DNA from: Methylococcales bacterium
Lineage (GTDB): Bacteria > Pseudomonadota > Gammaproteobacteria > Methylococcales > Methylomonadaceae
Assembly (NCBI GenBank): GCA_003584895.1
Contig: QVQF01000122.1
Span: 1-43,230, forward strand
Direction of reading: 5' to 3'
DNA length: 43,230 nt
In this document: one piece after another, positions 21,254 through 31,470 of the stretch
Layout of the letters: every line of letters begins with the position of its first letter
Position numbering within the stretch: position 1 is the first letter of the stretch
Notes under the pieces: model-generated
What the model was told of the DNA's origin: nothing
What the model saw: the letters and a program-made list of their open reading frames with translations, nothing else
Database searches by the model: none
Position numbers and translations under genes: made by a program

Positions 21254-24200
21254 ATGATGAACCGCAGTGTTTTTTTTGCTACTAGCTTGTATTTAGCCTT
21301 TATCATCTATGGCAGCCTCGTGCCGTTGGTGTTCAATCATCTATCCATTGAAGCGGCCTTAACTCAATTTAAACATATCCCTTATTTAAACTTAGGTGCA
21401 GCCTCTAGGGCAGATTGGATAGCCAATATAGTGCTATACATTCCTTTGGCTTTTTTTGCGGCGGCCACAATTAATTGCGCACATACTCTGCTAGGTCGAC
21501 TTTTAGTTGCTATCCTAGTCTTGGCTTTTTGTCTGCTAGTCGCCGTTGTAGTGGAATTTACCCAGTTGTTTTTCCCACCTAGGACAGTCTCATTAAACGA
21601 TTTAAGCGCTGAAGCATTAGGATCACTGATAGGAGTATTGACCTGGCTATTTTTAAGTGATTACTTTTCAGGCTTATGGCGTCAGTTAGTCAGTGCTAAC
21701 AGACTCTCAGTACAATCAGCCATTATCTTTTATATACTTATTTATGGCGCGCTCAGTCTATTCCCTTATGATTTTGTCACCTCCATCGCTGAGCTTAATC
21801 TGAAATTAGCCCATGGTTCAGATAACATTTTTATGTCTTTCTCTACTTGCCAAATTAATGGGGTTCGTTGTGGACTTAAGATACTTTCTGAAATAGCCGT
21901 ATTATTACCGTTAGGACTTTTATGTGGTTATTTGCCTTCTGTACAACAACGAATAACCATTGCTGTCTTACTAGGCTTTTTGATAGGCTTGGTACTTGAA
22001 TTGATACAGGTCTTTTTATTATCTGGTTCTGGGCAAGGACTATCCATCATCACTCGTATGATTGGCATGGGCTTAGGCGCTAGCTTATGGTCACGCATTC
22101 AAACATTAGATGTATCTATCACACTCAGCTATCTAAAACGATCACTGTACTTAATCATACCGCTCTATCTTTTACTACTGATCACCGCTAACGGAGAGTT
22201 CACTCATCACTGGTTATTACCGCAACTCGCTTTAGAACGGCTGACAGACATTCATTTTTTACCGCTCTATTATTTTTATTACACCTCTGAAGGCGTGGCC
22301 TTGGTGAGCTTGTTAAATACCTTAGGTCTTTATTTTCCTATCGGTTTATTTTGTTGGCTAGGCTTTATCAAAAAAGATTATTTGCAAAACCCGCCTACTC
22401 TGCATTGGTTTTTTGTAGGCTTACTTGCAGGATTTGTGGCATTGGCCATAGAGACAGGTAAATTGTTTTTAGTAGCTAAACATCCAGACCCCAGTAATAT
22501 TTGGTTGGCCTTTATGGCAGCAGCGGCTTGCTATCAATTGATGAGCGCCATACCATCCTGGTTATTTCATACTAAAAATACTATCCCGACTATAACCATC
22601 GCGCCGCTTGCGACGACTTCAGAACACACACAACAGCAGGTACTACCAGCATTTGAGGCCGATAAGCGTTGGCGCATCTTGTCCTTACTATTGTGGAGCC
22701 TCATCATGGTGGTATTATTTGATTATCCTGTCGCGCCCTTTGCTTTAGGATTATTTTTGCTAGGCTATTCCACGTTACTAGCTTATGCGCCTTATACTTG
22801 GCTAATCGTTATCCCTGCTCTATTACCATTGATGGATTTTGCCCCATGGACAGGGCGCTTTTTCTTTGATGAATTTGATTTACTCATTTTAACCACCCTA
22901 GCCTATTACTTTTGGCACAAACCCAAACATGCCCAGAGGTCGCTATTAACTATACCCAGTATTTTACTGTTAACGATATTTACCGTGCTCTATGGCATTA
23001 GCTTATTAAGAGGCCTGTTACCTTTACCTGTTATTAATGCCAACGCTTTTAATCATTATTACAGTCACTTTAATAGTTTACGAGTCGGTAAAGGTTATCT
23101 ATGGAGCTTACTACTCTTGCCCTTTTTGCAACTCACTCTGCGCCGCTATCGTGATGCTCTCTATTACTTCGGCTATGGCATCTTACTAGGTTTAGCGGGT
23201 GTATCTTTGTTTGCCATCATTGAACGATTGGTCTTTGTTAGTTTGTTTGATTTTAGTAGTGACTATCGCATCAACGCTTTATTTTCCAGTATGCATACGG
23301 GCGGAGGTCATATTGAAAGTTATTTAATGTTATCGCTACCGTTTATAACGCTGTTATTTATTAATGATATTCACCATAACAGCCGTTGGGTACTCGGCAT
23401 CCTTTTGTTTATAATAAGCATCTATACCTTACTAGTCACTTTTTCACGTGGTGGCTATTTAGGTTTTTGTGTAGGCTTTTTAGTATTGTTATTCACATTA
23501 CTCATAGGCTTTAGAAAAACACCGCAGCTGACCAAACAATTTCGAATACCTTTGCTGTTAATAATTACCAGTTTACTCATCGCGTTGCCAATATTACGGG
23601 GCAGCTATATTCAACAACGCTTTGATGCATACCATCAAGATCAAAACACTCGTAGCGCTCATTGGCAAGATGCTATTTCTATGCGAGATGATGATTTAGC
23701 GACCTCTTTGTTCGGCATGGGCTTAGGCAGTTTCCCTCGAACGTTTTTTTGGTTAAACAACGAGGGCATCAAGCCGGCTAGCTATGAAATAATCACCGAA
23801 AAAGATCAATCTTATTTACGTTTATCTGGTGGCGATGCTTTATTTATGGGGCAATATATTGCTGTTAACGCTCACACAGCGTACCGTTTACTTTTAGATA
23901 TCCGTAGTAAAAACCTAAGCCTAACCTTATCTAGCTCACTGTGTGAAAAGTCGCTGCTATATTCTTTAAATTGCAGCACTGTGCTAAGCAACAGCAAACC
24001 TGAGTGGCAGCGTGTAGAGCAAATTATCGACAGCCATAATCTAGCTGAGCCGGTAGCCCTAGGTCTGTTAAAGCGTCCCATACAATTATCTTTTTATAAC
24101 GATAATGCTGTAGGGCAAGCCATAGATATTGATAATGTGCAATTACTGAATCCTGAAGGCATTAACATAATTAAAAATGGCGACTTCTCGCATAATACTG

Positions 24201-24520
24201 ATTTATGGTTATTTTCTTCCCAGAAACACTATCCTTGGCATATCAAAAATATTTGGGTGCATCTATTATTCGATCAAGGTTGGCTGGGGCTTAGTGTATT
24301 TATTTTGTTATTTTCCTTGGCCATACATCGCTGTTGTCGGCTTTTTCCCCAGCAAGCAATTTACTCAAGTATTTTATTATCGGCTTTTAGCGGCTTTCTC
24401 GTGGTGGCGTGGGTTGACAGCCCGTTTGATGCACCACGGCTAACGCTATTGTTTTTCTTACTACTGTTTTTAGCCCTGTTGCGTACACCGCAGGTTTGGA
24501 AAACAGCACCTATCATTTAA
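21254..24520 (+). CDS. Triple VanZ-like / O-antigen ligase fusion membrane protein
   Basis: The 1088-aa protein is almost wholly membrane-spanning. Residues about 1-140 and 150-285 form two VanZ-like units (each with an NI(V)LYIPLA- or EIAVLLPLG-type strand, then a VVEFTQLFFPPR- or LELIQVFLLSG-type segment), and residues about 295-440 resemble a third. From about 470 the pattern becomes that of a Wzy/O-antigen ligase (FDEFDLLIL, LLVTFSRGGYLGFCVGF, LFGMGLGSFPRTFF). A segment of about 150 residues (850-985), hydrophilic and beta-rich, with IKNGDFSHNTDLW near its end, interrupts the periplasmic ligase loop before the closing IWVHLLFDQGWLGLSVFIL. It probably polymerises or ligates an undecaprenyl-linked glycan. 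No clear ribosome site precedes ATG 21254; ATG 21257 is equally possible. The next gene starts 10 bp later. Confidence 0.8.
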   Translation: MMNRSVFFATSLYLAFIIYGSLVPLVFNHLSIEAALTQFKHIPYLNLGAASRADWIANIVLYIPLAFFAAATINCAHTLLGRLLVAILVLAFCLLVAVVVEFTQLFFPPRTVSLNDLSAEALGSLIGVLTWLFLSDYFSGLWRQLVSANRLSVQSAIIFYILIYGALSLFPYDFVTSIAELNLKLAHGSDNIFMSFSTCQINGVRCGLKILSEIAVLLPLGLLCGYLPSVQQRITIAVLLGFLIGLVLELIQVFLLSGSGQGLSIITRMIGMGLGASLWSRIQTLDVSITLSYLKRSLYLIIPLYLLLLITANGEFTHHWLLPQLALERLTDIHFLPLYYFYYTSEGVALVSLLNTLGLYFPIGLFCWLGFIKKDYLQNPPTLHWFFVGLLAGFVALAIETGKLFLVAKHPDPSNIWLAFMAAAACYQLMSAIPSWLFHTKNTIPTITIAPLATTSEHTQQQVLPAFEADKRWRILSLLLWSLIMVVLFDYPVAPFALGLFLLGYSTLLAYAPYTWLIVIPALLPLMDFAPWTGRFFFDEFDLLILTTLAYYFWHKPKHAQRSLLTIPSILLLTIFTVLYGISLLRGLLPLPVINANAFNHYYSHFNSLRVGKGYLWSLLLLPFLQLTLRRYRDALYYFGYGILLGLAGVSLFAIIERLVFVSLFDFSSDYRINALFSSMHTGGGHIESYLMLSLPFITLLFINDIHHNSRWVLGILLFIISIYTLLVTFSRGGYLGFCVGFLVLLFTLLIGFRKTPQLTKQFRIPLLLIITSLLIALPILRGSYIQQRFDAYHQDQNTRSAHWQDAISMRDDDLATSLFGMGLGSFPRTFFWLNNEGIKPASYEIITEKDQSYLRLSGGDALFMGQYIAVNAHTAYRLLLDIRSKNLSLTLSSSLCEKSLLYSLNCSTVLSNSKPEWQRVEQIIDSHNLAEPVALGLLKRPIQLSFYNDNAVGQAIDIDNVQLLNPEGINIIKNGDFSHNTDLWLFSSQKHYPWHIKNIWVHLLFDQGWLGLSVFILLFSLAIHRCCRLFPQQAIYSSILLSAFSGFLVVAWVDSPFDAPRLTLLFFLLLFLALLRTPQVWKTAPII

Positions 24521-24530
24521 CTCAAAGTCT

Positions 24531-25340
24531 ATGTCAATTCATTCAAAACCCCATACGCTATCTAACAAGATCTTAAACCTACGCTGCGTTCTTTTAAGTC
24601 TTATCGCCTTATTAGGCTCAGGATCAATCTGTGCAGAACCTTCACTTGCTGATACGGTAGCCAAGATTAAACCTAGCATTGTGGCAATTGGCACTTATAT
24701 GCCTAGACGCAATCCACGTTCGGTATTCATGGCGACAGGCTTTGCCGTCGGCGATGGCAGTTTAATTATTACTAATGCACACGCCATACCTGAAACTCTA
24801 GATATTGAACACTTAGAAAGGATCGCTATTTTTTATCATAAAGATAATGTTGATAAAGTCATTATTGCAACTGAACTGGCTGTCGATAAAGATCATGACT
24901 TAGCACTCTTAAAAATCAACGATGAACGTTTGCCAGCACTGACATTAGGTTCTACAGCATCAGTGCGCGAAGGACAACTATACGCTTTCACCGGCTTTCC
25001 TATCGGCATGGTTCTAGGACTATCTCCAGTAACCCATAGAGGGATCATTTCTGCCATTACACCTAATATCATTCCTATGATCCAATCCGGCCAAATAAAA
25101 CAAGCTCAATTTAAACGCTTACAAGACCCCTATAATGTCTTTCAATTGGATGCCACGGCCTATCCGGGCAATAGCGGTAGCCCACTTTATCATCCTGAAT
25201 CAGGGCAAGTTATCGGCGTTATTAATAAAGTCTTTGTACAAGAAAGTAAAGAAAACATCTTAGCCAAGCCCAGTGGAATTTCTTACGCTATACCCATTAA
25301 CTACGTAGAAAGCTTACTAAAAGCCAAAGGCTACTATTAA
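24531..25340 (+). CDS. Periplasmic trypsin-like serine protease
   Basis: A signal peptide (hydrophobic VLLSLIALLGSGSICA ending near residue 35) precedes a single trypsin-like domain. The catalytic triad is visible as His84 (ITNAHAIP), Asp123 (DKDHDLALL) and Ser215 (YPGNSGSPLY). No PDZ domain follows, which separates it from DegP/DegS; the length is 269 aa. It lies between a polysaccharide ligase-like gene and a sugar transferase, so its target may be in the same envelope pathway, but that is inference. Confidence 0.9.
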   Translation: MSIHSKPHTLSNKILNLRCVLLSLIALLGSGSICAEPSLADTVAKIKPSIVAIGTYMPRRNPRSVFMATGFAVGDGSLIITNAHAIPETLDIEHLERIAIFYHKDNVDKVIIATELAVDKDHDLALLKINDERLPALTLGSTASVREGQLYAFTGFPIGMVLGLSPVTHRGIISAITPNIIPMIQSGQIKQAQFKRLQDPYNVFQLDATAYPGNSGSPLYHPESGQVIGVINKVFVQESKENILAKPSGISYAIPINYVESLLKAKGYY

Positions 25341-25375: not shown

Positions 25376-26764
25376 ATGATACGCATTTTTCGCCACTATA
25401 TATCCAGAGCTTATCTAATTTTATTATTGATAGAGTTTTGTATGTTTTTTGCCGCCATGTATTTGGGTAGCGACATACGCTTTCTGATGTCGGAATCTTG
25501 GTACACCGAAAACCACATCACCTTAGCCAGCTTCATTTTTTCTAGCGTCATGAGCCTATCTTGCATCGGCTTAGGCTTGTATAGACGTACGCTGAGTGGT
25601 GAAGAATATAACTTGATGACTAGGATTTGTATTAGCTTTGGCCTAGGCATATTGCTCATTGTTAGCATTTATTATCTATTACCCGAGCTTTATATTGCTC
25701 GCAGCGTATTAGTGTTTGCCATTATGCTGGCTTTTATAGGTATGTCATGCATACGTTATCTGTTTTATAAGTTTGCGCATTTTGATCGATTAAAAAGACG
25801 TTTTCTAGTCATCGGTAGTGGTGAAAAAGCACAGCAATTAATTTCACTGAATGAGTCTTTAGTCCACAAAGGCTTTAACATTATTGGTTTTTTAGCCTTA
25901 GCTGATGAAGAGCCTATCGTTGATAAAAGTCATATTATTGCTTACGATCAATCCCTGATTAAAATTGCAGAGCATTATAAAATTGATGAAATTGTTATTG
26001 CCATCCATGACCGTAGATTAGGTTTACCTTTTGATGAGTTATTAGATTGCAAAATGTCAGGCTTAACTATCATGAATATTGTCGAATTCTATGAGCGAGA
26101 ACAAGGCATTATTTCCTTAGCCAATGTGAGTCCCAGTTGGCTAATTTTTTGTGATGGCTTTGCACAAGGTGATTTAAGAGCGCTTAAAAAAAGAGCTTTT
26201 GATTTATTTGCCAGCATCCTATTACTCAGCGTTGCTTGGCCCATCATGTGTTTAACTGTATTGGCTATTATTTTGGAAAGCGGCCTTAAGGCACCGATAC
26301 TCTATCAACAAATACGCGTAGGTGAAAAAAACCAACCCTTTAATGTACTTAAGTTTAGAAGCATGAAGACAGATGCTGAAAAAAATGGGGCGCAATGGGC
26401 ACAAAAAAATGATGATCGCATTACCTGCGTAGGGCGTTTCATCCGAGCATGTCGCATTGATGAACTACCACAAATTGTTAATGTTTTAAGAGGCGACATG
26501 AGCTTTGTTGGCCCCCGACCAGAAAGACCCGAATTTGTTAAAGGCTTTAATGAACGCATCCCCTATTATCAAGAAAGACATAGAGTAAAACCCGGCATTA
26601 CCGGTTGGGCACAATTATGTTATCCCTACGGCGCTGACGAGCATGACACCATACAAAAGCTACAATACGATTTGTACTATGTTAAAAATTACAGTTTGTT
26701 TTTAGATTTCTCTATCTTGTTTAATACTGTGGAAGTTATTTTGTGGGGTAGAGGGGCGAGGTAA
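25376..26764 (+). CDS. Undecaprenyl-phosphate sugar phosphotransferase (EpsB/WbaP type)
   Basis: This enzyme transfers a hexose-1-phosphate to undecaprenyl phosphate, starting exopolysaccharide synthesis. The N-terminal half has several membrane segments and a CoA-binding-like Rossmann region (FLVIGSGEKAQQLI near residue 145). The C-terminal half has one membrane segment, then LKFRSMKTDAEKNG, RIDELPQIVNVLRGDMSFVG and PGITGWAQL, which are diagnostic of bacterial sugar transferases. The 462-aa length and sequence fit the subfamily associated with PEP-CTERM/XrtA exopolysaccharide clusters, from memory. Ribosome site AAGGGG precedes ATG 25376. It probably shares a transcript with the two genes before it. 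Confidence 0.92.
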   Translation: MIRIFRHYISRAYLILLLIEFCMFFAAMYLGSDIRFLMSESWYTENHITLASFIFSSVMSLSCIGLGLYRRTLSGEEYNLMTRICISFGLGILLIVSIYYLLPELYIARSVLVFAIMLAFIGMSCIRYLFYKFAHFDRLKRRFLVIGSGEKAQQLISLNESLVHKGFNIIGFLALADEEPIVDKSHIIAYDQSLIKIAEHYKIDEIVIAIHDRRLGLPFDELLDCKMSGLTIMNIVEFYEREQGIISLANVSPSWLIFCDGFAQGDLRALKKRAFDLFASILLLSVAWPIMCLTVLAIILESGLKAPILYQQIRVGEKNQPFNVLKFRSMKTDAEKNGAQWAQKNDDRITCVGRFIRACRIDELPQIVNVLRGDMSFVGPRPERPEFVKGFNERIPYYQERHRVKPGITGWAQLCYPYGADEHDTIQKLQYDLYYVKNYSLFLDFSILFNTVEVILWGRGAR

Positions 26765-27714: not shown

Positions 27715-28965
27715 ATGTTTATAAATCCGTTAAAATTAACCGCTAATAATCTCTTTGCTAAGAAAATGATGCCCTTAATTAACCCACCTAATCAAATATT
27801 TATTAGCCTTTTATACTTGTTGCTGATTAGCACCACCCATCCAGCTTATGCAAAAGCCAAGCTCAACATCAATATTGCTTACTTAAGCCAAGAACAAAAA
27901 AATCCGCCACAACTATCCAACTTAGATCCATTTGTTAAAGATAAAGGCTTAAAAGGCGCAGAACTTGGTATAGCTGATGACAATACCACCGGTGAATTTA
28001 CCGGGCAGCAGTTTAATTTAGTTAAATTTATCGTACCCATAGAAGGAAATATCGTCGATACCTTTAACAAAGACATCGCCAATAAATTTCAGTATGTGAT
28101 CGTTAATCTAAATGCCGAGCAACTTAACACCATAGCCGACTTACCCGTAGCAAAAAACATACTGCTCTTCGATGTTGCTACCTTAGATGATGCTTTGCGC
28201 AACGAGCAATGTCGTAGTAATGTCTTACACCTACTACCTAGCCGAGCCATGCGTGCAGATGCCTTAGCGCAATATATGCTCAAGAAACGCTGGAACAAAT
28301 GGTTTCTGGTGATAGGCAACAGCCCAGAAGATCGTTTATATGCCGATGCCTTGAAACGTTCAGCCAAACGCTTTGGTATGAAAATAGTCACCGAAAAAAT
28401 CTGGGAGCATACTTATGATGCCCGTAAAACCACGCAATCTGATATTGCCGTGTTTACGCAAGTTGATGACTATGACGTGTTAGTGGTGGCCGATGAACAC
28501 AGTGAATTTGGTGAGTATCTTGACTATCGCACTTGGCTAGCTAGACCTATCATAGGTACACAAGGTTTGATTGCCAGTGCTTGGCATAAAACCCATGAGC
28601 AATGGGGCGCCATACAAATGCAAAACCGCTTTAAAGATAAAGCCGGTCGTTGGATGGAAGAGCAAGATTATGGCGCTTATTTAGCAACGCGCGCCTTAGG
28701 AGAAGCGGCCACTCGCAGTTTATCTAGCGAACTGAATCCCATCAAAGCTTATCTATTAAGCCCTGCCTTTGCTTTAAATGGTTACACCGGCGCACCGCTG
28801 TCTTTTAGAAGCTGGGACGGCCAATTAAGAATGCCTGTTTTACTAGCGGCACCTAGATCATTAGTCGCTGTCGCGCCTATCGAGGGCTTTTTACATCCCA
28901 AAACCGAACTCGATACTTTAGGTTATGATCAAGCTGAATCACACTGTCAATGGACACCACAATGA
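27715..28965 (+). CDS. ABC substrate-binding protein of PQQ-alcohol dehydrogenase type
   Basis: This periplasmic protein (416 aa or fewer) belongs to the Leu/Ile/Val-binding-like fold in the version linked to PQQ-dependent alcohol oxidation (TIGR03863 by memory). KLNINIAYLSQ begins the mature part after a signal peptide NQIFISLLYLLLISTTHPAYA; LLPSRAMRADALAQYM and RPIIGTQGL follow. The start is uncertain: ATG 27715 puts about 25 residues before the hydrophobic stretch, while ATG 27766 or 27769 gives a more ordinary signal peptide. The stop overlaps the next start. The ligand is unknown; an alcohol-derived compound or PQQ-system signal are the usual suggestions. Confidence 0.88.
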   Translation: MFINPLKLTANNLFAKKMMPLINPPNQIFISLLYLLLISTTHPAYAKAKLNINIAYLSQEQKNPPQLSNLDPFVKDKGLKGAELGIADDNTTGEFTGQQFNLVKFIVPIEGNIVDTFNKDIANKFQYVIVNLNAEQLNTIADLPVAKNILLFDVATLDDALRNEQCRSNVLHLLPSRAMRADALAQYMLKKRWNKWFLVIGNSPEDRLYADALKRSAKRFGMKIVTEKIWEHTYDARKTTQSDIAVFTQVDDYDVLVVADEHSEFGEYLDYRTWLARPIIGTQGLIASAWHKTHEQWGAIQMQNRFKDKAGRWMEEQDYGAYLATRALGEAATRSLSSELNPIKAYLLSPAFALNGYTGAPLSFRSWDGQLRMPVLLAAPRSLVAVAPIEGFLHPKTELDTLGYDQAESHCQWTPQ

Positions 28966-29927
28966 TAAAAAAAACCTGTTTAAGCATAGCTATAGGCTTA
29001 CTTTGCCTAGGTAATGTTATGGCTGAAAGCGTCTTTGTTACTTTAGAAAATGATAATGCCTTAGCCATCGTCGATCCTATTGCGGGTCAATTAATCAAAA
29101 CCATACCCATAGGACAGCGGCCTCGAGGCATCGCTATCAGCCCTGACTATAAGTTTTTATATATCGCCACTAGCGATGACAACACCATCAAAATCATCGA
29201 TGCCTCCACCTTTAAGGAGCTCGGTCATTTACCGTCTGGCAAAGACCCTGAAACCTTTGCCTTAAATCCTGCGGGTAATCGTATTTATGTTTCCAATGAA
29301 GATGACAGCTTGGTCACAGTCATTGATGTCCCTAATAAAAAAGCCATCAAACAAATCAAGGTCGGTGTCGAGCCTGAAGGCATTACCGTGAGTCCTGATA
29401 ATCGCTGGCTAGTGAGCGCTTCTGAAACCACCAATATGGTGCATTGGATAGATACCAAAACTAATACCATTATTGAAAACACCTTGGTTGATCCGCGTCC
29501 AAGAGCGGTAAGTTTTACCGCAGATAGCCAACAACTGTGGGTGAGTTCTGAAATGGCTGGCAGTGTTATGGTTTTAGATGCTAACAACCAACAGCTTATT
29601 AAAACGATTAAGTTTGAAATATCAGGCATTACCACCGATAAAATTCAGCCCGTCGGCGTAGTCATTGATAAAGAGCGACATCGAGCTTATGTAGCCCTAG
29701 GCCCTGCAAACCGAGTCGCGGTGATTAATGCCCAAACTTTTGAAGTCGAAAAAATCTTACTGGTAGGGCAACGGGTTTGGAATCTAGCCTTTTCGCCTGA
29801 TCAAAAACGTCTTTACACCACTAACGGCACTAGTAATGATATGTCTATTATCGACTTAGACAGCCAAACTGTGACTAAGTCGATAGGCGTAGGCACGTAT
29901 CCTTGGGGCGTAGCGGTAAAACCATGA
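28962..29927 (+). CDS. PQQ-associated YVTN beta-propeller protein
   Basis: A signal peptide (IKKTCLSIAIGLLCLGNVMA) precedes about seven repeats of the YVTN type, each with a pattern like GQRPRGIAISPDYKFLYIA followed by DNTIKIID. This is the family reported with PQQ-dependent catabolism (TIGR03866, from memory). Such propellers sit in the periplasm or outer leaflet; binding partner unknown. I take ATG 28962, which overlaps the previous stop as ATGA, instead of ATG 28950, because it gives a compact signal peptide. Length is about 321 aa, and the 3' end overlaps the ATPase gene by 4 bp. Confidence 0.88.
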   Translation: MIKKTCLSIAIGLLCLGNVMAESVFVTLENDNALAIVDPIAGQLIKTIPIGQRPRGIAISPDYKFLYIATSDDNTIKIIDASTFKELGHLPSGKDPETFALNPAGNRIYVSNEDDSLVTVIDVPNKKAIKQIKVGVEPEGITVSPDNRWLVSASETTNMVHWIDTKTNTIIENTLVDPRPRAVSFTADSQQLWVSSEMAGSVMVLDANNQQLIKTIKFEISGITTDKIQPVGVVIDKERHRAYVALGPANRVAVINAQTFEVEKILLVGQRVWNLAFSPDQKRLYTTNGTSNDMSIIDLDSQTVTKSIGVGTYPWGVAVKP

Positions 29928-30670
29928 ATATAAATACTCCAAGTGCCTTATGTATCGAACAGTTAAGTTACGCTTATAGTGGCAAAATAGCCTTAGATCA
30001 GGTTAGTTTTAGCATACAACCTGGTGAATGCACCTTATTACTGGGGCCTAATGGTGCAGGAAAAAGCACCTTGTTTTCTTTAATCACGCGCCTTTATGAT
30101 AGCCGTGAAGGCCAGATTAGCTTATGTGGCTATGATATTAAGCGCCAAACACGTCTAGCCTTAGCCAAGTTGGGTGTAGTATTCCAACAAAGTACGTTGG
30201 ATATGGATTTAACGGTGATGCAGAATTTACTCTATCACACGGCTTTACACGGCATAGCCCGCAAAGTAGCCCTGCCACGCATACAGCAAGAACTCGAACG
30301 CTTAAACATGTTTGAGCGGCGCTTTGAAAAAATACGCCAGCTTAATGGTGGACACAGACGCCGCGTAGAAATTGCTAGAGCCTTATTACATAAACCCGCC
30401 TTATTATTGTTAGATGAGCCGACTGTCGGCTTAGATGTTCCCAGTCGCTTAGCCATCGTTGACTATGTACATCAATTAGCCATGGAAGAAAATCTAGCGG
30501 TGTTATGGGCTAGTCATTTAATTGATGAGATATTTCCTGACGATCATTTAGTGGTGTTATCCAAAGGTTGTATTAAAGCCAAAGGCACGGTTACAGAGGT
30601 CTTAGCCGCCACCGAGTGCGCCTCAATCAAAGAGGCTTTTTATAATTTAACGCAAGGAGAGTCGTCATGA
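29924..30670 (+). CDS. ABC transporter ATP-binding protein, PQQ-alcohol type
   Basis: The protein has Walker A GPNGAGKST near residue 42, Q-loop VFQQSTLD, Walker B LLLLDEPTVGLD and the switch His in WASHLIDE. The signature loop reads LNGGHRRRVE in place of LSGGQ, the form found in the PQQ-associated ATPase family (TIGR03864, from memory). The start is ATG 29924, overlapping the propeller stop (248 aa); a TTG at 29903 would lie within that gene. It couples with the next gene, whose start also overlaps. Confidence 0.93.
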   Translation: MNINTPSALCIEQLSYAYSGKIALDQVSFSIQPGECTLLLGPNGAGKSTLFSLITRLYDSREGQISLCGYDIKRQTRLALAKLGVVFQQSTLDMDLTVMQNLLYHTALHGIARKVALPRIQQELERLNMFERRFEKIRQLNGGHRRRVEIARALLHKPALLLLDEPTVGLDVPSRLAIVDYVHQLAMEENLAVLWASHLIDEIFPDDHLVVLSKGCIKAKGTVTEVLAATECASIKEAFYNLTQGESS

Positions 30671-31470
30671 ATTGGCTACATTACTGGCGCGCCATGTCGG
30701 GCATTATCGGTAGAGAACTCTGGCGCTTCATTACCCAACGCGAACGTTTTATTTCAGCACTGGTTAGGCCGCTAATCTGGCTATTCGTCTTTGCCGCCGG
30801 TTTTAGAGCCGCCTTAGGTCTCGCTATTACCCCACCTTATGAAACCTATATTTTATATGAAGTGTATATCACGCCAGGACTGATCGGCATGATTCAATTA
30901 TTTAACGGCATGCAAAGTTCCTTATCGATGGTCTATGACAGAGAAATGGGCAGCATGCGCATCTTAATGGTCTGTCCCCTGCCCCGTTGGTTTTTATTGC
31001 TCAGTAAATTGTTGGCCGGTACCTTTGTATCGATCTTACAGGTTTATGTGTTTTTGGGGATTGCTTGGTTTTATGACATACATGCGCCCTGGCAAGGTTA
31101 CTTATGGGTGATGCCTACACTAATATTGTCGGGTTTAATGTTAGGTGCACTGGGCTTGTTAATGTCATCTTTTATTAAGCAACTGGAGAATTTTGCGGGG
31201 GTGATGAATTTTGTTATTTTCCCTATGTTTTTTATGTCTACCGCGCTCTATCCCTTATGGAAAATGAAAGAGTCTAGCGCTCTGCTGGCCACACTAGCCG
31301 AATACAATCCCTTTTCTCAAGCTGTGGAGTTAATTCGCTTTGCTTTATATGCGCAATTTGATCAACAGGCTTTTTTCTACACGCTAGGGGCTTTTATCGT
31401 GTTCATGGCGGCCGCTATCGTCGGCTACAACCCGTCAAAAGGCATGATGAGTAAGAAAGGTGGAGCTTAA
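30667..31470 (+). CDS. ABC-2 type permease (PedC-like)
   Basis: The 267-aa protein has about six membrane segments and the ABC-2 exporter-like pattern (LVRPLIWLFVFAAGFRAALG, MVYDREMGSMRILMVCPLPR, then GALGLLMSSFIKQLENFAG). It matches the permease of PQQ-alcohol ABC systems (PedC-like). ABC-2 permeases usually export, whereas the gene two places upstream encodes a binding protein; the direction of transport is not settled by sequence. It ends the four-gene operon and converges on pqqC. Confidence 0.88.
   Translation: MNWLHYWRAMSGIIGRELWRFITQRERFISALVRPLIWLFVFAAGFRAALGLAITPPYETYILYEVYITPGLIGMIQLFNGMQSSLSMVYDREMGSMRILMVCPLPRWFLLLSKLLAGTFVSILQVYVFLGIAWFYDIHAPWQGYLWVMPTLILSGLMLGALGLLMSSFIKQLENFAGVMNFVIFPMFFMSTALYPLWKMKESSALLATLAEYNPFSQAVELIRFALYAQFDQQAFFYTLGAFIVFMAAAIVGYNPSKGMMSKKGGA

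Follow-up and report, generated by a model that had tools for sequence, protein, structure and literature searches.

A triple VanZ-like/Wzy_C fusion protein with a carbohydrate-binding-module-like insert, probably an accessory enzyme of exosortase-linked exopolysaccharide pathways

The window analysed here, the whole 43,230-nt stretch of contig QVQF01000122.1 from a methane-oxidising Methylococcales bacterium, contains at 21254-24520 on the forward strand one ATG-initiated open reading frame (ORF) of 1088 amino acids with 0 internal stops. The ORF joins three tandem VanZ-like units (residues ~4-441) to a Wzy_C/O-antigen-ligase core (471-836 and 988-1088), and a 151-residue beta domain lies inside the core. 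We propose, with a probability of roughly 0.6, that this VanZ-Wzy protein is a second, accessory polymerase/ligase for undecaprenyl-diphosphate-linked glycans in exosortase-linked exopolysaccharide (EPS) pathways, with VanZ as its lipid-carrier module. In the literature searched (titles and abstract starts), the combination of triple VanZ, Wzy and carbohydrate-binding module (CBM) was not described; this search did not extend to the figures and source tables of PMC12419801, which may hold it.

Results

Three VanZ-like units, a Wzy_C core and a beta domain in one polypeptide

Residue counts given below refer to an alignment of 66 rows (the window protein plus 65 relatives), which was also used for the AlphaFold2 whole-protein model (mean predicted local distance difference test score, pLDDT, 87.5; predicted template-modelling score, pTM, 0.74). 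In the model, the same helix pattern occurs three times (4-147, 151-282 and 287-441), followed by a poorly ordered linker, a helical core, an all-beta stretch (844-989) and the last long helices. A first-pass annotation, made from the letters alone, had described three tandem VanZ-like units in the N-terminal ~440 residues, a Wzy/ligase-like part and about 150 beta-rich residues forming a separate domain in the periplasmic loop of the ligase, all in one polypeptide. The ORF, Pfam matches and the model bore out this description, and rescoring without residues 837-987 (see below) likewise set the beta domain apart.

Among the matches listed by Foldseek for the full model there were carbohydrate-binding and other mostly beta-rich proteins and 0 membrane enzymes, so that this search says nothing about the membrane part. 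Searching the PDB with the single sequence or with the 66-row profile gave 0 matches for the membrane parts and returned carbohydrate-binding modules only.

The triple VanZ is a variant of VanZ-1

Pfam VanZ (PF04892) matched three stretches of the ORF (51.9 bits, cut-off 30.1). Scored singly, the units gave E-values of 7.7e-13, 1.3e-6 and 0.011 (49.6, 29.5 and 16.8 bits), and only unit 1 was above the cut-off. Unit 3 is weak alone by Pfam, yet it follows the same helix pattern in the predicted model and has residues conserved in 66/66 rows.

VanZ has been called enigmatic for over two decades (PMC12419801). In the available text of that 2025 analysis, VanZ-1 is placed in the Lipocone superfamily as a predicted lipid-head-group enzyme; its features are an Asn in H2 and DxDDxxxN in H4, and an ExxQ in H3 is listed as shared. 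Unit 1 of the window protein keeps the H2 Asn (N58) and the H3 ExxQ (E101, Q104), each in 66/66 rows. None of the three units has DxDDxxxN in H4: with the register set by eye, unit 1 reads SxNDxxxE, unit 2 QxxSxxxR and unit 3 mostly Dx[ST][ND]xxxA. Judged from these motifs, the triple VanZ is a variant rather than a typical member of VanZ-1.

Given such divergence, the triple VanZ might be a catalytically dead membrane anchor or sensor, with the Wzy_C core working alone. The H4 acidic set is missing from units 2 and 3, and unit 1 reads SxNDxxxE instead of DxDDxxxN; other fusions of VanZ with ligand-binding domains are interpreted as signalling in the text available of PMC12419801; and the parts can be encoded separately, as in three same-strand split pairs (see below). 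Against a dead module stand the polar residues of unit 1, which are invariant in the alignment to a degree that exceeds the need of a plain anchor. Eleven unit-1 positions (R52, D54, N58, P64, E101, Q104, R110, S113, N115, D116 and E120) are moreover identical in 9 of 10 added proteins that are split or otherwise fused; in the exception, L147, two of them differ. We regard a dead anchor or sensor as rather unlikely and unit 1 as the probable active unit.

The insert is a CBM-like jelly roll within the Wzy_C domain

On the native protein, Wzy_C (PF04932) matched residues 717-828 with 36.5 bits (cut-off 31.7), covering positions 1-105 of the 149 in the profile. When residues 837-987 were removed, the only deletion scored, the match rose to 53.2 bits and ran over the full profile (1-149/149). 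The same removal in relatives L066 and L089 gave 49.9 and 55.8 bits, both to profile end 149. The insert sits inside the Wzy_C domain, because its removal restores the full-length match.

Modelled alone, as the first-pass annotation had proposed for comparison with CBMs, the insert gave a confident fold (pLDDT 89.4, pTM 0.85). CBM structures ranked first in Foldseek (4mgq, E 5.7e-6, then CBM4 and CBM16); TM-scores of ~0.45-0.57 in the top rows indicate the same fold class and not a close match. With the 66-row profile of the insert, 4mgq (E 2.6e-6) and 4d0q (E 0.0092) were found in the PDB. At E<=1, Pfam CBM_4_9 (PF02018) matched 24/66 inserts (best 8e-6) and CBM_4_9_1 (PF22637) 26/66 (best 1.8e-7). 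Cys897, Cys907, Trp918, Asn975 and Trp985 are present in every row. In its predicted structure, the insert is a jelly roll of the CBM4/16/22 type.

The segment NGDFSHNTDLW closes the insert and had been taken for an ending typical of CBMs. That view did not hold: the segment resembles instead the N-terminal motif of CBM4/16-like modules. In L066 and L089, positions 1-20 and 1-23 of the CBM_4_9 profile fall on the last part of the insert. The start of 4d0q also aligns to the insert's end, though with a segment score of just 2.8 bits, which is very weak. When the end motif was moved to the front in 10 rows, scores against isolated CBMs rose by ~3 bits (2zex, 19.2 to 22.0; 4d0q, 18.4 to 21.5) and both matches began at the chain start, whereas a control rotation elsewhere gave 18.4 and 17.9. 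The match to 4mgq favoured the native order (31.9 native, 15.9 rotated, 30.8 control rotation). In the Pfam test, which covered the motif-to-front rotation of five rows, CBM_4_9 scores changed from none to 15.4 in L043, 17.7 to 23.8 in L066, none to 15.0 in L073 and 13.4 to 15.1 in L089, all below the cut-off of 25.9; the insert of the window protein had no CBM_4_9 match, native or rotated. These alignments lend moderate support to a rotated strand order, which we consider probable.

The core belongs to the Wzy_C family but fits poorly the label of O-antigen ligase

The earlier description of the C-terminal part as Wzy/ligase-like stood as regards the Wzy_C family; the specific label of O-antigen ligase is weak. 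Arg732, Arg789 and Arg800 of the core are each conserved in 66/66 rows. We take H[NSQ]x9Gxx[GTY] to be the WaaL motif, although we found no paper confirming it; its His position maps to residue 998, which is His in 7/66 rows and Lys in the window protein, and the other motif positions are retained in 62/66. In the relative from Methylotuvimicrobium buryatense 5G (L066), Asn and Asp stand at the positions of His996 and Lys998. Because this His position is poorly conserved, we would not classify the protein as a true O-antigen ligase. The core is rather that of a Wzy_C enzyme, with an acceptor base that has probably shifted or varies.

In RodA, Asp262 has been likened to His338 of WaaL as the base, according to the available text of PMC10449877.

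The fusion is conserved among relatives

Relatives were collected with a genome_contigs scan, in which 277 stretches encoded relatives by tblastn; the best 80 of the 277 were kept. The scan was biased to fusions: its patterns lay within the VanZ part, the query set (A2) consisted of fused proteins only, and ranking was against the full-length protein. Ligase-only forms could therefore not surface in it.

The kept relatives span Methylococcales, Nitrosomonadales, Rhodocyclaceae and others, with identities down to ~30%. The nearest named relative was from a Crenothrix polyspora metagenome-assembled genome (MAG; 79%), and that of the laboratory methanotroph Methylotuvimicrobium buryatense 5G (L066) was 45% identical. 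Further carriers belong to Methylobacter, Methylovulum, Methylomonas, Methylotuvimicrobium, Nitrosomonas, Nitrosospira, Accumulibacter, Rhodoferax, Chromatium and a Cellvibrionales MAG. The architecture had been called unusual; unusual it is, but with 80 kept relatives over several orders it is not rare.

A frameshift or misassembly could in principle have fused two normally separate genes, and separate genes do occur (L076, L082, L090 and L030). However, 71 of the 80 kept relatives have one ORF over at least query residues 25-1060. In three of the remaining nine (L076, L082, L090), two genes lie side by side on one strand; the reading frames of the other six (L044, L046, L054, L055, L065, L108) are broken or incomplete, in three cases at a contig end. 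In a quick tree of 49 ligase modules, with two long branches of unsure placement, the three split pairs formed one starred clade nested in a starred group whose other 12 rows are fused; same-strand splitting is thus derived there. The single ORF in most relatives and the nested split clade led us to reject frameshift fusion, the refuting possibility named in the first-pass annotation, and we give it practically no chance. A phage origin was also rejected: 165 stretches of viral_contigs matched a pattern, and 0 of them encoded a relative.

The modules recombine

We also compared a class sample of 276 genomes, of which 74 matched at E<=0.001. Nineteen were counted as strong carriers (E<=1e-50, a line drawn after the list was seen); the other 55 fell below it and were not counted. 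Of the strong carriers, 7 have the whole protein, 3 the ligase part (G177, G068, G326), 6 the triple VanZ in frames of ~450-550 aa and 3 the triple VanZ in frames of >1100 aa. G068 has a further match over query residues 6-525.

In three class genomes the triple VanZ is joined to a C-terminal Hepar_II_III_C domain (L144:4632-8090, -; L145:10030-13578, +; L146:8009-11464, -). Conversely, the ligase with its insert occurs without VanZ: in G036, of the same family as the window's genome, it is fused to a right-handed beta-helix (L032:8161-12579, +; 1472 aa), and in G177 (L130:184-3447, -) it extends to about residue 649 of 1087 and is followed by ~430 residues without a Pfam match. G043 encodes triple VanZ and ligase separately, in genes that converge. 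The modules thus recombine, the triple VanZ standing alone or fused to a heparinase-like domain and the ligase with insert standing alone or fused to a beta-helix.

Additional single-module genes were also seen. One genome has a 367-aa single-VanZ ORF (L131:2882-3985, -) in convergent orientation to its stand-alone triple VanZ; a second, ligase-only paralogue lies directly behind the full protein at L106:9962-15177 (+); and another lies ~17 kb from the full protein in G151 (L142/L143).

Strong carriers tend to possess exosortase-linked EPS genes

Strong carriers of the class sample were enriched in components of exosortase-linked EPS systems (Fisher tests, kinship ignored). An exosortase match, counted at E<=0.001 so that other subtypes are included, was present in 18/19 strong carriers versus 86/276 genomes overall (p 2.8e-9); the XrtA cut-off was passed in 16/19 versus 53/276 (p 2.7e-10); and EpsB_2 was over its cut-off in 19/19 versus 91/276 (p 1.7e-10). 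Among 61 relatives the association was weaker: 19/21 strong carriers had an exosortase match versus 40/61 (Fisher p 0.0025), with G003 and G010 as exceptions; G034 was left out of this test, as its match contains stops.

PEP_O_lig_1 was over its cut-off in 17/19 strong carriers, including the window's genome, versus 43/276 genomes. Because this second Wzy_C-type protein is present, a division of labour between polymerase and ligase is possible: PEP_O_lig_1 would polymerise, and the VanZ-Wzy protein would be a WaaL-like terminal ligase that transfers finished chains from undecaprenyl diphosphate to a fixed acceptor, be it the lipid A core, a protein or an anchor. Its membership of the Wzy_C family agrees with this, and a CBM-like domain could keep the completed chain in place. 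The presumed WaaL motif, however, is kept in its non-His part and largely lost at His, and no acceptor gene was identified. We consider a terminal ligase of this kind conceivable and somewhat doubtful, and prefer the accessory polymerase/ligase in a less specific sense.

Gene neighbourhood and the window's genome

The coordinates of the ORF, its parts and the two genes behind it are listed in Table 1.

Table 1. Features of the VanZ-Wzy gene and its downstream neighbours in the window
Feature	Residues	Position	Strand	Basis or remark
Whole ORF (1088 aa), three VanZ units and Wzy_C core with CBM-like insert	1-1088	21254..24520	+	ORF, Pfam, model
VanZ unit 1	4-147	21263..21694	+	Asn58, Glu101, Gln104, Ser113, Asn115, Asp116, Glu120 each 66/66
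VanZ unit 2	151-282	21704..22099	+	H4 acidic residues replaced: Gln261, Ser264, Arg268, 66/66
VanZ unit 3	287-441	22112..22576	+	Glu400..Lys403, Asp412-x-[ST]-[ND]; Lys 65/66, Asn/Asp 65/66
Linker between VanZ and Wzy modules	442-470	22577..22663	+	pLDDT <50 at 441-461; point of division in split relatives
Wzy_C-type membrane core, first part	471-836	22664..23761	+	Pfam, model, insert-free rescoring
CBM4/16/22-like jelly-roll insert	837-987	23762..24214	+	Cys897, Cys907 66/66; model, Foldseek, profile matches
NGDFSHNTDLW	975-985	24176..24208	+	CBM4/16-type start motif, here at end of insert
Wzy_C-type core, closing part	988-1088	24215..24517	+	Holds His996, Lys998
Trypsin-like serine protease		24531..25340	+	10 nt downstream of VanZ-Wzy gene
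EpsB_2-type initiating glycosyl-phosphate transferase (XrtA/PEP-CTERM systems)		25376..26764	+	35 nt after protease; TIGR03013 561.5 bits, cut-off 393.35

The order VanZ-Wzy, protease, EpsB_2 recurs in 11/80 loci. Other neighbours, annotated from one representative per cluster at loci many of which end early at contig ends, were Asn-synthase-type amidotransferases (18 of the 80), Wzx-type flippases (16), GT1 (15) and AMP-ligases (12), as well as a beta-helix protein in 9/80 loci, whose Pfam match is below the cut-off.

In the window's genome (G000), contig C65 encodes an exosortase (L138, 295 aa) with 136 bits to the general exosortase model (EpsH, TIGR02602; cut-off 105.55). It adjoins a PEP-CTERM response regulator (693.3 vs 502.6) and is possibly, judged from its model scores, of a subtype without its own model. 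The C65 amidotransferase is nearest to the XrtA type (272.6 bits, below the cut-off of 816.9). PEP_O_lig_1 was over its cut-off in a 419-aa frame on contig C20. Wzy_C occurs in two further places of this genome, and VanZ was found nowhere else in it. The window ORF itself had no match to exosortase-specific NCBIfam models.

Near the VanZ-Wzy gene, on either strand and side, 23/80 loci encode a small protein (134-284 aa as called) whose start looks secreted by eye, for example L048:6018-6479; the one member scanned had no Pfam match, and tblastn with one member found no homologue in the window. Downstream in the window, 27715-31470 encodes an ABC system of the pyrroloquinoline quinone (PQQ)-dependent alcohol dehydrogenase type, with a substrate-binding protein, a beta-propeller, an ATPase and a permease (TIGR03863, TIGR03866, TIGR03864 and TIGR03861, each above cut-off). 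A promoter and terminator scan gave a site number no higher than in shuffles.

Discussion

We propose that the VanZ-Wzy protein is an inner-membrane enzyme within the exosortase-linked EPS pathway. At the periplasmic face, the Wzy_C core would move a glycan chain off undecaprenyl diphosphate and onto an acceptor, either a growing chain or a terminal one. The jelly roll, located just ahead of the closing segment of the core, would bind and orient the glycan, and the triple VanZ would handle either the lipid carrier itself or the glycan-diphosphate head group attached to it, with unit 1 as the probable active unit and with more divergent units 2 and 3. Of this proposal, the topology, the substrate, the direction, the binding of the glycan and the chemistry of VanZ are inferred. 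The first-pass suggestion of one polypeptide that recognises and joins a surface glycan is compatible with the CBM-like insert, the EPS gene context and the exosortase association; its specification as an O-antigen ligase is the part that fared poorly.

Several observations weigh against this assignment. The VanZ-Wzy protein is not the sole Wzy_C protein of such genomes, as PEP_O_lig_1 is present in most strong carriers. The exosortase of the window's genome is below the XrtA cut-off (144.8 vs 208 bits) and lies on another contig. His996, two residues before position 998, is His in 57/66 rows only, so that there is no universal histidine at that site. The insert of the window protein has no Pfam match of any kind. 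Conservation in units 2 and 3 drops where the triple VanZ is fused to the heparinase-like domain, with three changed unit-2 positions in each of L144 and L145 and, in L146, one in unit 2 and two in unit 3; unit 3 of L147 does not align. Finally, in Methylobacillus 12S, disruption of EpsH left methanolan production unaffected, as stated in the available text of the founding PEP-CTERM paper (PMC1569441), in which 'VanZ' has 0 occurrences. For Methylomonas LW13, the text available of PMC11072679 cites a disrupted epsH as lowering EPS and reports the loss of a polysaccharide band on disruption of the N-acyl amino acid synthase of the exosortase system; test systems for this EPS pathway thus appear to exist.

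Since the triple VanZ is alternatively fused to a heparinase-like domain, the substrate shared by the fusions may be the glycan or its lipid carrier. A more far-reaching, speculative reading, which we regard as rather unlikely, is that the triple VanZ is a plug-in enzyme module. It would capture or release undecaprenyl-diphosphate-linked EPS and pass the chain to its fusion partner, which would be the polymerase/ligase with the rotated sugar-binding domain in one lineage and the heparinase-like domain in another. If so, VanZ would carry out the step of exosortase-linked EPS at which the carrier is handled and the chain released.

By joining VanZ and a glycan polymerase/ligase in one conserved polypeptide, the protein could help to reveal the role of VanZ. 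As a probable second Wzy_C-type enzyme in exosortase-linked EPS, it would bear on how methane and ammonia oxidisers form biofilms and EPS.

The protein resembles VanZ-1 of the Lipocone superfamily (PMC12419801) in its Pfam match, its helical units, the H2 Asn and H3 ExxQ of unit 1, and its EPS gene context; VanZ-1 is tied there to EPS genes including WaaL-like ones. It differs in having three units in a row, with SxNDxxxE in H4 of unit 1 and more divergent motifs in units 2 and 3. In the available text of that analysis, a triple-VanZ/Wzy/CBM protein does not appear, nor do the words 'exosortase', 'heparinase' and 'tandem'. A bimodular O-ligase of a different kind, WadA (GT121+GT25), is described in PMC10920833, whose available text has 0 occurrences of 'VanZ' and 'carbohydrate-binding'.

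With CBM4/16/22 modules (4mgq, 2zex, 1gui, 4d0q) the insert shares the jelly-roll fold, according to Foldseek and PDB profile matches; unlike them, it is inserted in a membrane enzyme, carries the start motif at its end and has an invariant Cys pair with a CEK..S..C pattern. The core is like the Wzy_C/O-antigen ligase superfamily (PF04932; CAZy GT121 for O-ligases, PMC10920833) in its full-length match without the insert and in its three invariant Arg residues, and unlike it in the 151-residue jelly roll inside the domain and in the non-conserved position of the presumed WaaL His. PEP_O_lig_1 (TIGR03097), the exosortase-A-associated ligase, is likewise of the Wzy_C type and occurs in the same kind of genomes, where it is a protein separate from the VanZ-Wzy protein.

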